Source: Sporomusa sphaeroides DSM 2875 (GTDB lineage: Bacteria > Bacillota > Negativicutes > Sporomusales > Sporomusaceae). Taken from it: a stretch of 64,000 nt of DNA. Both the position numbers and the translations under genes were made by a program. The notes beneath the pieces were generated by a model. The model did not search any database, was not told where the DNA came from, and saw only the letters and a program-made list of their open reading frames with translations. The stretch is from the NCBI RefSeq assembly GCF_001941975.2, contig NZ_CP146991.1:2094524-2158523 (forward strand), in the 5' to 3' direction. Shown here in pieces: positions 8,997 to 64,000 of the stretch (the stretch's first letter is position 1; every line of letters starts with the position of its first letter).

Positions 8997-9182
8997 GTGT
9001 TATTACGGGAAACCATGTGGGAGATTTTCTTTAGTACCGGTAATATCGATGCTTACCTTGCTTATCGTGCATGTCAAGATTGTCCTGGCAATACCTCTGA
9101 ACCGGCGGATGAATCCACAGAACCGATGCTTTTACCAGCAAATTTTTCAAATCATGGATTACGTGAGGCTAGATGGCAGTAG
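8997..9182 (+). CDS. YqzL-like small protein
   Basis: A 61-residue protein beginning at GTG 8997, with ribosome binding site GAAGGGA ten bases upstream. Residues 8-22 ('WEIFFSTGNIDAYLA') match the YqzL family pattern W-x2-F-x2-TG-x-I/V-x-x-YL. In Bacillus yqzL sits between era and recO, exactly as here. Function unknown. The stop overlaps the recO start by ten bases. The C-terminal half ('CQDCPGNTSEPADESTEP') is variable. The ORF would be easy to miss because of its size and GTG start. Confidence 0.7.
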   Translation: MLLRETMWEIFFSTGNIDAYLAYRACQDCPGNTSEPADESTEPMLLPANFSNHGLREARWQ

Positions 9183-9913
9183 AGTATCAGACAGAAGCCA
9201 TTCTGTTGGCAGCACGCGATTGGAGCGTTGCCGACAGAGTGGTCACTTTATTTTCACGTGAATATGGAATCATAAGAGCTATGGCCTATGGTGCCCGTAA
9301 ACCTAAAAGCAAGCTGGGAGGAGGCCTCCAGCCATTTACCCACTTGTCTCTGGCAATGACTGCCGGAAAAGGCATGGATGCGGTAAAACAATGTGAAGTG
9401 CAAACTTCTTTCCGGGAAATCAGAGAAGATTTAACCAAACTGGCATACGCTAATTTCATTGCCGAACTGGCAACAGGGTTATGGCCAGAGCGGCAGCCTG
9501 AAGCTGCGGCATATGATACCTTGCTGGCGGTTTTTCGTTTGCTTGCCGTTCGCAACCCGCGTATTTCGGCCCTGGCAGGGGCATGGCAGCTATTAGCCTT
9601 AGCCGGTTTTCAACCTGAGTATGAGCGGTGCGCGCAATGTGGCAAAAAACTAATTTTCCCAGTTAGCTTTAGTTTTGCTGCCGGTGGCAGCACTTGTGCC
9701 GAATGCAGCCTGGCGAATGACCCTGTTTTTCCCCAGGCCGACCAAAAGTTTTTAGAACAAGTATGCACTCTTGATTTAGATAATCCAGGGCAGTTTGCTG
9801 TTAATGCCAGAATCCTGGTAAATATCGAAACCTTGCTGTATGGGTTTGTCCGACACCAATTAGAGCGCCCTTTAAAGTCACTGGAGTTCATTAACCGGAT
9901 TAACTCCTTATAA
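9173..9913 (+). CDS. recO: DNA repair protein RecO
   Basis: RecO, which anneals single strands and helps load RecA with RecF and RecR in gap repair. The 246-residue chain has the N-terminal OB fold ('QTEAILLAARDWSVADRVVTLF') and a C-terminal helical domain with a four-cysteine zinc motif ('CAQCGKK' and 'CAECS', near residues 147-181). The ATG at 9173 overlaps the YqzL-like gene. Length and order (era-yqzL-recO-glyQ) are standard for Bacillota. Confidence 0.95.
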   Translation: MAVEYQTEAILLAARDWSVADRVVTLFSREYGIIRAMAYGARKPKSKLGGGLQPFTHLSLAMTAGKGMDAVKQCEVQTSFREIREDLTKLAYANFIAELATGLWPERQPEAAAYDTLLAVFRLLAVRNPRISALAGAWQLLALAGFQPEYERCAQCGKKLIFPVSFSFAAGGSTCAECSLANDPVFPQADQKFLEQVCTLDLDNPGQFAVNARILVNIETLLYGFVRHQLERPLKSLEFINRINSL

Positions 9914-22988: not shown

Positions 22989-23343
22989 TCTGAGTACGAA
23001 AGATGATCGCGGGTGCTTGATTGCACTCGAGGAAAGTCCGAGCTCCTTAGGGCAGGGTGCTGGATAACGTCCAGCGAGGGCGACCTCAGGGAAAGTGCCA
23101 CAGAAATGCAGACCGCCTAACCTTGGTTAGGTAAGGATGGAACGGTGCGGTAAGAGCGCACCAGCAGTCAGGTGACTGACTGGCTAGGTAAACCCCACCT
23201 GGAGCAAGACCGAATAGGGAAGGGATGAAGCTGCCCGCTGAGCCTTCCGGGTTGTGTCGCTTGAGCTGTCAGGCAACTGCCGGCCCAGATAAATGATCAT
23301 CACCGCTAACGCGGAACAGAACTCGGCTTATTGACTACTCAGA
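22989..23343 (+). ncRNA. rnpB: RNase P RNA, bacterial type A
   Basis: Catalytic RNA of RNase P, which removes tRNA 5' leaders. Conserved blocks: GAGGAAAGTCCGAGCTCC (P4 5' strand region), ACAGAAATGCAGACCGCC, GGTAAGGATGGAACGGTG, AGACCGAATAGG and AGAACTCGGCTTA (P4 3' strand). The ends pair as CTGAGTA with TACTCAG (P1), which defines the limits to within a few bases. The layout is the ancestral A type rather than the Bacillus B type, in keeping with a non-Bacilli member of the Bacillota. Confidence 0.96.
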
Positions 23344-23350
23344 CAAGCAT

Positions 23351-31096: not shown

Positions 31097-31215
31097 TGTT
31101 TGCCTCCAATTTTTCCTGAAATTTTTAAATAACTGAAAGAAATAGACGATATGACAAGAATATACCATGATATCGAATTTGACCAAGCTTGCAATTTGGT
31201 ATATTATATTTATAA

Positions 31216-31342
31216 TGCCGAATCCTTATATGGTACGGGGGAACCAATAGAAATACAGGGGTGAATCCGCAATCGCGGTAGGGCGTTCTCACATTCTCTT
31301 TTGCCCAAACCCGACAGCTAACCTCGGAGGCGCATTGTAAGA
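31216..31342 (+). promoter_or_regulatory. c-di-AMP riboswitch (ydaO/yuaA type)
   Basis: The leader carries the ydaO consensus blocks in order: CCGAATCCTTATATGG, ACGGGGGAACCA, GGGGTGAATCCGC, GGTAGGG and ACCCGACAGCTAACCTCGG-AGGCG. This class senses c-di-AMP and usually turns genes off when it is abundant; cell-wall hydrolases and potassium transporters are the classic targets. Here it controls the 3D-domain protein at 31355. A TATAAT at about 31210 may be the -10 box. Confidence 0.92.
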
Positions 31343-31354
31343 GAGGTGAAACCA

Positions 31355-41946: not shown

Positions 41947-42082
41947 GTAATTGAATTTTGCATTAAGCAGAAGCCATCCGCTTCTCACCTTACGACGCCT
42001 GGGGGCAGTTAGTAAGGTAACAGTAGGCAATCATTTTGATATGCTATTACGCGGGTGGTTTATACCACCCGTTTTTTATTTT
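41947..42082 (+). promoter_or_regulatory. L20 autoregulatory leader of the infC operon
   Basis: The leader has AGCAGAAGCCATCCGCTTCT, CACCTTACGACGCC/AGTAAGGT pairing and a terminator (CGGGTGG-TTTAT-ACCACCCG plus T run at 42052-42080). This matches the Gram-positive L20 leader, in which ribosomal protein L20 binds an rRNA-like structure and promotes termination. Confidence 0.88.
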
Positions 42083-42111
42083 ATTTGACAAATATCAGGA
42101 GGTGAGCGGCA

Positions 42112-46139: not shown

Positions 46140-46808
46140 TTGGCAGTAAAAAATAAGACCAAGCAATTTGCTGTTATCGGCTTAGGGCGTTTTGGCACAA
46201 GTGTTGCCAGGGCCTTATATCTGCTCGGGTATGAAGTGCTGGCAATTGACGCCGATGAAGAACAGGTGCAAAAGTTTAGTGAGGAAGTCACCCATGTTGT
46301 CCAGGCAGATACCACTGATGAAAACTCACTTAAAGCATTAGGTATCCGAAACTTTGATGTAGTTATTGTCGCCATTGGCGAGAATATGCAGGCTAATGTG
46401 TTTACCACTTTGCTGTTAAAAGATCTTGGCGTAAAACATATTGTGGCAAAAGCCCGCAATGAATTGCACGGAAAAATGCTGGAGAAAATTGGCGCAGACC
46501 GTGTTGTTTATCCTGAACGTGATATGGGGCAGCGGGTGGCCCATAACCTGGTGTCAACCAATGTACTGGAGTATATTGAGTTATCTCCTAATTTGAGTAT
46601 TGTTGAAATCACTGCCCCCAAAGCCTTAGTGGGTCAAAGCCTGGCTGAAGCTGATCTCCGGGCAAAATATAAAGTTAATGTGGTAGCGATGAAGCGGGGC
46701 GAGCAGGTGACTGCACCGCCACAGCCTAATGAAAAAATTGCTAAAGGGGATATTCTGATTATTGTGGGAGAAAGCCAGGGGGTACAAAAGCTGGAGGAAT
46801 TAGAATGA
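46140..46808 (+). CDS. ktrA: Potassium uptake regulatory subunit KtrA (TrkA family)
   Basis: Cytosolic gating ring subunit of 222 residues. RCK_N with nucleotide-binding 'VIGLGRFGTSVARAL' (residues about 11-25), the acidic 'AIDADEEQVQKF' strand end and an RCK_C domain (about 135-220). RCK_C domains can bind c-di-AMP. Start TTG 46140 follows GAGGGAGAG. The end overlaps the methyltransferase start by four bases (ATGA). Confidence 0.93.
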   Translation: MAVKNKTKQFAVIGLGRFGTSVARALYLLGYEVLAIDADEEQVQKFSEEVTHVVQADTTDENSLKALGIRNFDVVIVAIGENMQANVFTTLLLKDLGVKHIVAKARNELHGKMLEKIGADRVVYPERDMGQRVAHNLVSTNVLEYIELSPNLSIVEITAPKALVGQSLAEADLRAKYKVNVVAMKRGEQVTAPPQPNEKIAKGDILIIVGESQGVQKLEELE

Positions 46809-47617
46809 GTGAGTTTATTTCCAGTCCGGCAAACAGGCTGATTAAAGAAGTTGTTTCCCTTAAACAAAAAAAATACCGGGATAGCCTGGGCTTATTTATC
46901 GCGGAAGGCGTGCGCCTGATAGAAGAATGTGCTGTTGCCGGGTGGTCTGTCGCAACCTGCATTTATACGGAAGCGGCGGCTGCCAGAGACCGGACGCGCA
47001 GCCTGATTGAGAGGCTGGAAAAGTTAAATTGTCAGCTGGCAGTGGTTCCTGACAGCCTTTATAACAAGATTTCCGATACGGAACAACCTCAGGGAATTAT
47101 GGTAATAGTAAAAAAACGTCAGGCTACCCTGGAAAGCATGGTGGCTGCCGGTGAAAACCCTCCCTTGGTTGTGGTACTTGACGGTATTCAGGACCCCGGC
47201 AATGTTGGAACCATTATCCGTACCGCAGATGCCGCCGGTTGTACCGGAGTAATTGCGCTTAAAGGCTCAGCCGATATCTATGCCGGTAAAACCGTGCGGG
47301 CCAGCATGGGATCGCTGTTTCATCTGCCGGTTGTTGAAGGGATAACTTCGTTAGAACTGATTACCTGGCTTCAGCGCTGCAGAGTTAGGCTGCTGGCAAC
47401 CAGTTTGCAGCAATCAGAACTGTACTACCGGACCAGGCTTGCCTGTCCTGTGGCGATTGTTTTGGGAAATGAAGGTCAGGGTGTCAGTCCCGAATTACTG
47501 GAAGCCGCTGACAGTTGTGTGAATATACCGCTTATTGGCCAGGCCGAATCGCTCAATGTAGCAGTTGCTGCCGGTATAATCCTGTATGAAGCGGTAAGAC
47601 AGCGGTCAACCTTGTAA
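46805..47617 (+). CDS. TrmH/SpoU family RNA 2'-O-methyltransferase (YsgA-like)
   Basis: SPOUT methyltransferase of 270 residues with an N-terminal substrate-binding domain and the trefoil knot motifs 'LDGIQDPGNVGTIIRTADAAG', 'VLGNEGQGVSPELLEAAD' and 'IPLIGQAESLNVAVAAGIILYE' (each a known SpoU motif). YsgA lies before pheS in Bacillus, as here. Substrate (23S rRNA or tRNA) is not certain. ATG overlaps ktrA by four bases. Confidence 0.9.
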   Translation: MSEFISSPANRLIKEVVSLKQKKYRDSLGLFIAEGVRLIEECAVAGWSVATCIYTEAAAARDRTRSLIERLEKLNCQLAVVPDSLYNKISDTEQPQGIMVIVKKRQATLESMVAAGENPPLVVVLDGIQDPGNVGTIIRTADAAGCTGVIALKGSADIYAGKTVRASMGSLFHLPVVEGITSLELITWLQRCRVRLLATSLQQSELYYRTRLACPVAIVLGNEGQGVSPELLEAADSCVNIPLIGQAESLNVAVAAGIILYEAVRQRSTL

Positions 47618-47640
47618 TTTTTACAAGGCTGTGATATAAT
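47612..47640 (+). promoter_or_regulatory. Promoter before the YqzL-like microgene and pheST
   Basis: TTGTAA and TATAAT with a 17-base spacer. The -35 box overlaps the stop of the methyltransferase gene and lies in a small palindrome (CCTTGTAA/TTACAAGG). Confidence 0.65.
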
Positions 47641-47694
47641 ACGGTTAGCAATAATGGAGATACTGATTACGGACAGAGAGGGTGTGGTCTTACG

Positions 47695-47784
47695 ATGATG
47701 ACCGCCGAATTTTTCTGGAGAATGTTTGAAGCTACCGGTTCCATTGCTGCGTATTTGTGGTATAAACGCTTACGGTTGCAATAA
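47695..47784 (+). CDS. YqzL-like microprotein, 29 residues
   Basis: A very short ORF, MMTAEFFWRMFEATGSIAAY followed by LWYKRLRLQ, between a promoter and the pheS T-box. It repeats the YqzL pattern seen at 8997-9182 (W-x2-F-x2-TG-x-I-x-AYL-x-Y). Ribosome binding site candidate GAGAGGG lies about 13 bases before the tandem ATGs. It ends at a possible second promoter (TTGCAA at 47776). The pattern match makes it likely to be translated, but the function is unknown; it could also be a leader peptide. Confidence 0.6.
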   Translation: MMTAEFFWRMFEATGSIAAYLWYKRLRLQ

Positions 47785-47804
47785 GTTAATAGTCATTTTA
47801 TGTA

Positions 47805-48040
47805 AGTACAATGAGGAAGAGAGTATGTTAGTTATGTTTCTACAGGGAGGATGCTGCCAAAGATTGCGAGCAGCGCTGAAACAGCTGGCAGAAGTTCACT
47901 TCTGAGTATCTGGGCTGAAGGGATAGGCTATTCTGTGTAGGTCTGGCGTTTTTTCCGCGTTACAGGAAATCGAGTGTAATTAGGGTGGTACCGCGAAGTC
48001 AAGACTTTCGCCCCTTGGGGCTGGAAGTCTTTTTATTTTT
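47805..48040 (+). promoter_or_regulatory. Phenylalanyl T-box leader
   Basis: T-box core AGGGTGGTACCGCG at 47982-47995, then the terminator (AGACTTTCGCCCC/GGGGCTGGAAGTCT) and T run. A TTC triplet at 47895-47897 in a Stem I loop is the candidate Phe specifier. It controls pheS-pheT. Confidence 0.92.
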
Positions 48041-48048
48041 ATTTTTAG

Positions 48049-49080
<1,032 letters not shown>

Positions 49081-63782: not shown

Positions 63783-63829
63783 GCATATAAAAATATACAG
63801 TATATTATATGTGAAATGTAATGAATAGG

Positions 63830-64000
63830 AGAAGTAAGTCAGAATGGTCTTTTAGAGAGCTGAGGGTTGGTGAAACTCAGTAGGCGGACTGGCTGAAATA
63901 CACCTATGAACAGCAGGCTGAAAGTGTGCAGTAGTAAGCCGGGCCGGAGCCACCGTTATATGGCTGGAAGTTTTTTAACTTCGCTTGAGTGGCTTATTGC
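63830..64000 (+). promoter_or_regulatory. T-box leader, probably tyrosyl (cut by window end)
   Basis: Stem I hallmarks are present: AGTCAGAATGG, TTTTAGAGAGC, GAGGGTTGGTGAAACTC. A candidate specifier TAC (63899-63901) is followed by ACC, which suggests tyrosine and a tyrS gene just outside the window. The antiterminator core and terminator lie beyond the end, so the call rests on the 5' half only. Confidence 0.7.

Follow-up and report, generated by a model that had tools for sequence, protein, structure and literature searches.

The window, i.e., the whole stretch of 64,000 nucleotides analysed here, contains a short ORF between a trmH gene and a Phe T-box leader, which is followed by pheS (Table 1). 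An initial sequence-only reading had described this ORF as a 29-residue YqzL-like gene; its coordinates and its sequence (MMTAEFFWRMFEATGSIAAYLWYKRLRLQ, 29 codons) are as given there, and the product matches the YqzL family (PF14006) with 27.7 bits (E 3.3e-6), just over the gathering cut-off of 27. In a search of the whole genome the ORF scores 25.7 bits, which is marginal and under that cut-off. The match covers positions 1-21 of the 44-position profile, the remainder of which corresponds to a variable tail. Searches of NCBIfam, PHROGs, and the PDB sequences with the peptide gave no match.

The genome (5.0 Mb) contains only two convincing YqzL copies, which are located at 47695 and at 8997. 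The second copy is followed by recO, scores 27.0 bits (E 5.6e-6), and covers only profile positions 4-24. Direct alignment of the two proteins extends over 24 residues with 46% identity (E 1e-6), in agreement with the initial observation that they have a motif in common.

Table 1. Features of the microprotein locus and of the recO-linked paralog in the window
Feature	Position	Strand	Evidence
SpoU/TrmH-family RNA 2'-O-methyltransferase gene (trmH), constant upstream neighbour	46805-47617	+	Pfam SpoU_methylase, E 7.8e-41; syntenic in nearly all class orthologs
Sigma-A promoter, TTGTAA (47612-47617), 17-nt spacer, TATAAT (47635-47640); TGn extended -10; -35 overlaps trmH stop codon	47612-47640	+	Read directly; conserved in order alignment
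AGCAAU, predicted 5' end of transcript; 5' strand of putative helix P1, pairs with 47743-47748	47647-47652	+	alifold, covariation
Extended Shine-Dalgarno AGAGAGGGTGTGGTC	47675-47689	+	Complementary to 16S 3' end GATCACCTCCTTTC(T)
Candidate start-codon hairpin P2, GUGGUC (47684-47689) with GACCGC (47700-47705), AUG in loop	47684-47705	+	Fold, covariation, codon randomisation
YqzL-family microprotein gene, 29 aa	47695-47784	+	Pfam match, orthologs, pN/pS, structure model
AUUGCU (codons 17-18), 3' strand of putative helix P1	47743-47748	+	Codon constraint, alifold, covariation
Phe T-box leader, specifier UUC at 47895-47897	47802-48018	+	Rfam RF00230, 88 bits, E 7.5e-20, full-length match
pheS	48058-49080	+	Pfam tRNA-synt_2d, E 9.8e-106
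recO-linked YqzL paralog, 61 aa	8997-9182	+	PF14006 match, direct alignment to 29-aa protein, model
recO, 3' of YqzL paralog	9173-9913	+	Named by position and sequence; used as recO query

Sigma-A boxes are found exactly where a promoter had been proposed, and they are conserved across the order. The T-box that had been placed after the ORF is very probably real as well, its score being slightly under the RF00230 cut-off of 93 bits. Between the end of the ORF and the start of the T-box lie 17 nt, and conservation of the ORF can therefore not be explained by conservation of the T-box. A second T-box leader is found at 63812-63999 of the window (93.5 bits), the controlled gene being outside the window. 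Three further RNAs in the window score above their Rfam cut-offs, i.e., a c-di-AMP riboswitch (31206-31348), an L20 leader (41959-42086), and RNase P RNA (22991-23345).

Two ortholog groups of a small, probably helical protein

Strong matches to the microprotein occur in about 47 of 200 genomes of the class. In the class loci read, trmH, the microprotein gene, and pheS follow each other on one strand wherever the contig reaches. Among 48 distinct class orthologs the frame is unbroken (neither stop codons nor frameshifts are present, which had been named as a possible refutation); almost all of them have 29 codons, and the residues W, F, T, S, Y, and Y never vary. Sporomusa silvacetica encodes an identical 29-aa peptide. 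The values for the family are 0.025 for pN and 0.242 for pS (pN/pS 0.10). One lineage that was counted as being without the microprotein (locus L263, genome G043) carries in its trmH-pheS gap the sequence FFREIIAVTGSIIISIR, which looks like a decayed copy.

PF14006 is matched at E 0.1 in 108 of 149 phylum genomes, and orthologs upstream of pheS, for which the initial reading had suggested a search, are present throughout class and phylum. All 130 classified loci fall at one of two addresses, 40 before recO and 90 at trmH/pheS, with none elsewhere; linkage to recO thus does not define the YqzL family. The pheS type is the only one in 59 of 99 classified genomes, 31 have both types, and 9 have only the recO type, so that in this sample the form linked to trmH/pheS outnumbers the recO form from which the family has its name. 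A pattern search, for which a wide alignment (A1) was too diverse, used as its query an alignment (A2) that contains three hand-written consensus-like sequences. Named carriers of the pheS type include Sporomusa, Lucifera, Moorella, Desulfofundulus, Pelotomaculum, Thermincola, Heliorestis, Dethiobacter, and Syntrophomonadaceae. No confirmed relative was found in the viral contigs and plasmids searched, which speaks against an origin from mobile elements. On this comparative evidence the ORF is a genuine and ancient protein-coding gene that is kept in the same place across many Bacillota, and the trmH/pheS-linked and recO-linked forms are two ancient ortholog groups of the phylum.

The alignments of 83 pheS-type and 55 recO-type sequences have the same invariant core positions (W, F, TG, AY(L), and Y) with fixed spacing. 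W8, F11, T14, S16, Y20, and Y23 are invariant in the pheS type, and W8, F11, T14, G15, A19, Y20, L21, and Y23 are common to both groups. They differ at S16 and at positions 9 and 25 (alignments A4 and A5). Position 9 (47719-47721) is mostly R or K in the pheS type and often E or D in the recO type, and position 25 (47767-47769) is likewise basic in the former and often acidic in the latter. The opposite charges could hint at a pairing of the two paralogs, against which stand the 59 genomes that have the pheS type only.

An AlphaFold2 model based on 83 orthologs consists of two helices (residues 2-17 and 20-31) hinged at TG with a pLDDT of 93; the construct comprised 32 residues, including three extra in-frame residues, as the minimum length is 30. 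In a fold comparison, the matches to the model were all generic helical hairpins, with Z no higher than 4.3. In the model of the recO paralog the two helices recur and are followed by a tail of low confidence, and the tails of recO-type sequences are variable. As the paralog thus appears to be the same helical unit with a tail added, the functional unit of the microprotein is probably its motif, as had been suspected from the near-minimal length of the peptide.

Selection on the mRNA and the start site

Synonymous divergence in the ORF (pS 0.24) is about a third of that in trmH and pheS (0.69-0.70), and no 25-codon window of these two genes has a value as low. Codon identity at T3, A4, T14, G15, I17, A18, and Q29 is higher than in neighbouring columns matched for amino acid, and none of 20000 matched draws was as codon-conserved as the ORF, columns and species not being independent in this sampling. 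The comparison of amino acid and nucleotide conservation that the sequence-only reading had asked for therefore has a divided outcome: the protein is constrained, as pN/pS indicates, but it is not constrained alone, and judged from the codon data the microprotein mRNA is under selection as well as the peptide.

Pairing of the extended Shine-Dalgarno sequence with the 16S 3' end, which was found in the same genome, amounts to -18.6 kcal/mol and is stronger than for all 50 window genes compared. The predicted hairpin P2 is formed by the 3' half of this Shine-Dalgarno sequence and by bases in codons 2-4. Among 36 sequences, 88.8% of the cells in the leader helices pair; two-sided changes are seen in 12 cells with 4.5 expected, a modest covariation given that many of the sequences are related. 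When synonymous codons were randomised, the mean percentile of the start-region fold was 0.33 for 39 Negativicutes and 0.35 for a further 100 sequences, versus 0.59 for pheS starts and 0.69 for recO-yqzL starts, where structure is avoided. Codon choice favours the start hairpin in both Negativicutes and Clostridia, and helix P1 in Negativicutes only, P1 being unsupported outside. The leader fold does not exceed dinucleotide shuffles in stability, and because the stability of the single sequence is ordinary, the start-codon hairpin is to be regarded as likely rather than proven. A third helix, between AUUUCCA in the leader and codons 8-10, was not convincingly supported in Negativicutes and was rejected.

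These results bear on the idea that a structured 5' leader controls or stabilises the pheST mRNA and that the peptide is incidental. Low synonymous divergence, the codon constraint at T3, A4, G15, I17, A18, and Q29, covariation, and a start hairpin in two groups are all in line with it. However, the amino acids are kept in Clostridia, where helix P1 is not, the pN/pS of 0.10 is that of a constrained protein, and the recO paralog shares the peptide core but lacks this start structure, which makes a purely RNA-based explanation unlikely.

Relation to pheS and proposed role

The position of the ORF also invites its interpretation as a leader peptide of pheST, in which the clustered Phe codons (F6, F7, and F11) would sense Phe-tRNA and translation of the peptide would tune the T-box, or else the transcription running on into pheST, in the manner of pheM. 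Besides the location upstream of pheS, it is the composition that favours this idea, F6 and F7 being Phe in about 75% of pheS-type sequences versus 7% and 22%, respectively, of recO-type sequences. Yet I, V, or L occupies these positions elsewhere, the core of the motif is common to the recO paralog, and no attenuator overlaps the ORF, which ends before the T-box begins. The initial claim that the ORF sits before a T-box holds here, but the T-box is not required: at seven loci with the microprotein (L103, L115, L170, L190, L215, L088, and L092), no T-box was detected with Rfam at E 0.01. At two of these (L088 and L092), pheS is absent from the 1.5 kb downstream and the FFW residues are still there; the genes that follow at L088 are presumably a CvpA-like and a DUF421-like gene, named by reading their sequences. 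Conversely, several families keep trmH, the T-box, and pheS, with the microprotein missing from the gap. Since each arrangement persists without the other, the microprotein is not a pheS leader peptide; we consider the pheM-like mechanism quite improbable and, on the same comparison, any pheS-specific regulatory role unlikely.

At L166 and L283-L284, about 1.5-1.8 kb separate the microprotein from pheS, which is downstream. The microprotein of L166 is followed by a T-box, and the intervening stretch contains a 309-aa ORF resembling an S4/FtsJ-type methyltransferase.

A small protein specific to sporulation is very improbable: SpoIIIAE is present in most class carriers, but SpoIIIAE is not matched in four families that carry the microprotein (f14, f17, f23, and f29), and five others (f9, f11, f12, f13, and f24) include SpoIIIAE carriers that have no pheS-linked copy, so that sporulation linkage as a requirement was rejected.

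The probable explanation of the locus as a whole is, in our view, a genuine YqzL-family gene for a 29-aa helix-TG-helix peptide that acts in trans, with a start hairpin limiting its translation. Comparison of the loci shows coding constraint, fixed synteny and length, independence from the T-box and pheS, a conserved promoter of its own, and a start site that has an extended Shine-Dalgarno sequence and favours a hairpin. Given the position of the promoter, transcription is predicted to start near 47647, which would place the ORF first among the cistrons of the pheST transcript and make its transcription independent of the T-box. As the ORF lies ahead of the T-box, the peptide would be made under termination as well as readthrough, independently of Phe starvation, and a transcript terminated at the T-box would encode the microprotein only. 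The hairpin may limit translation until binding of the 30S subunit, or some factor, opens it. The peptide itself might act as a small binding module through the invariant W8, F11, Y20, and Y23 around the TG hinge.

A basic function must be assumed for a 29-residue protein that is kept at a single genomic address in Negativicutes, Moorella, Desulfofundulus, Syntrophomonadaceae, and others. Because of the gene neighbours, a role near the ribosome or in RNA metabolism can be proposed, which is only a guess. It is conceivable, although doubtful, that the peptide is a near-minimal pan-Bacillota core microprotein with a dedicated RNA switch at its start codon, and that it and the recO paralog act on one and the same conserved partner, which would belong to core metabolism of RNA or the ribosome. 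As the pheS-linked form is the commoner one, appears independent of pheS regulation, and has a putatively structured start, its function is directly testable in tractable acetogens.

Comparison with known systems

The YqzL family is already in Pfam, and the microprotein is hence not of a new kind. In the literature searched, no treatment of a pheS-linked microprotein was found, and the one paper in which the name YqzL occurs has silage and lamb nutrition as its subject; to our knowledge, the separate trmH/pheS-linked group, its minimal length, and the RNA structure at its start site are undescribed.

The Phe T-box (RF00230) is predicted to be on one transcript with the ORF, but the ORF is wholly upstream of it and each is found without the other. 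pheM is an attenuation leader peptide of enteric bacteria. Like pheM-type leader peptides, the ORF is short, contains Phe, and precedes the phenylalanyl-tRNA synthetase genes; unlike them, it has deep amino acid conservation, a recO paralog, and retention without pheS. Assignment to the pheM-type class was rejected, as the association with pheS is not obligate and an overlapping attenuator is absent.

The type member of PF14006 is YqzL of B. subtilis, which adjoins recO. It and the microprotein are small chromosomal proteins of Bacillota, and both have the W-x2-F-x2-TG-x-I-x-AYL-x-Y core with identical spacing as well as the helix-TG-helix unit. In contrast to B. subtilis YqzL, the pheS-type protein is linked to trmH/pheS, has no tail beyond the motif (29 aa in all), has an invariant S16, and carries basic residues at positions 9 and 25, which are often acidic in the recO type; its gene has, in addition, the likely start-codon hairpin and the extended Shine-Dalgarno sequence.
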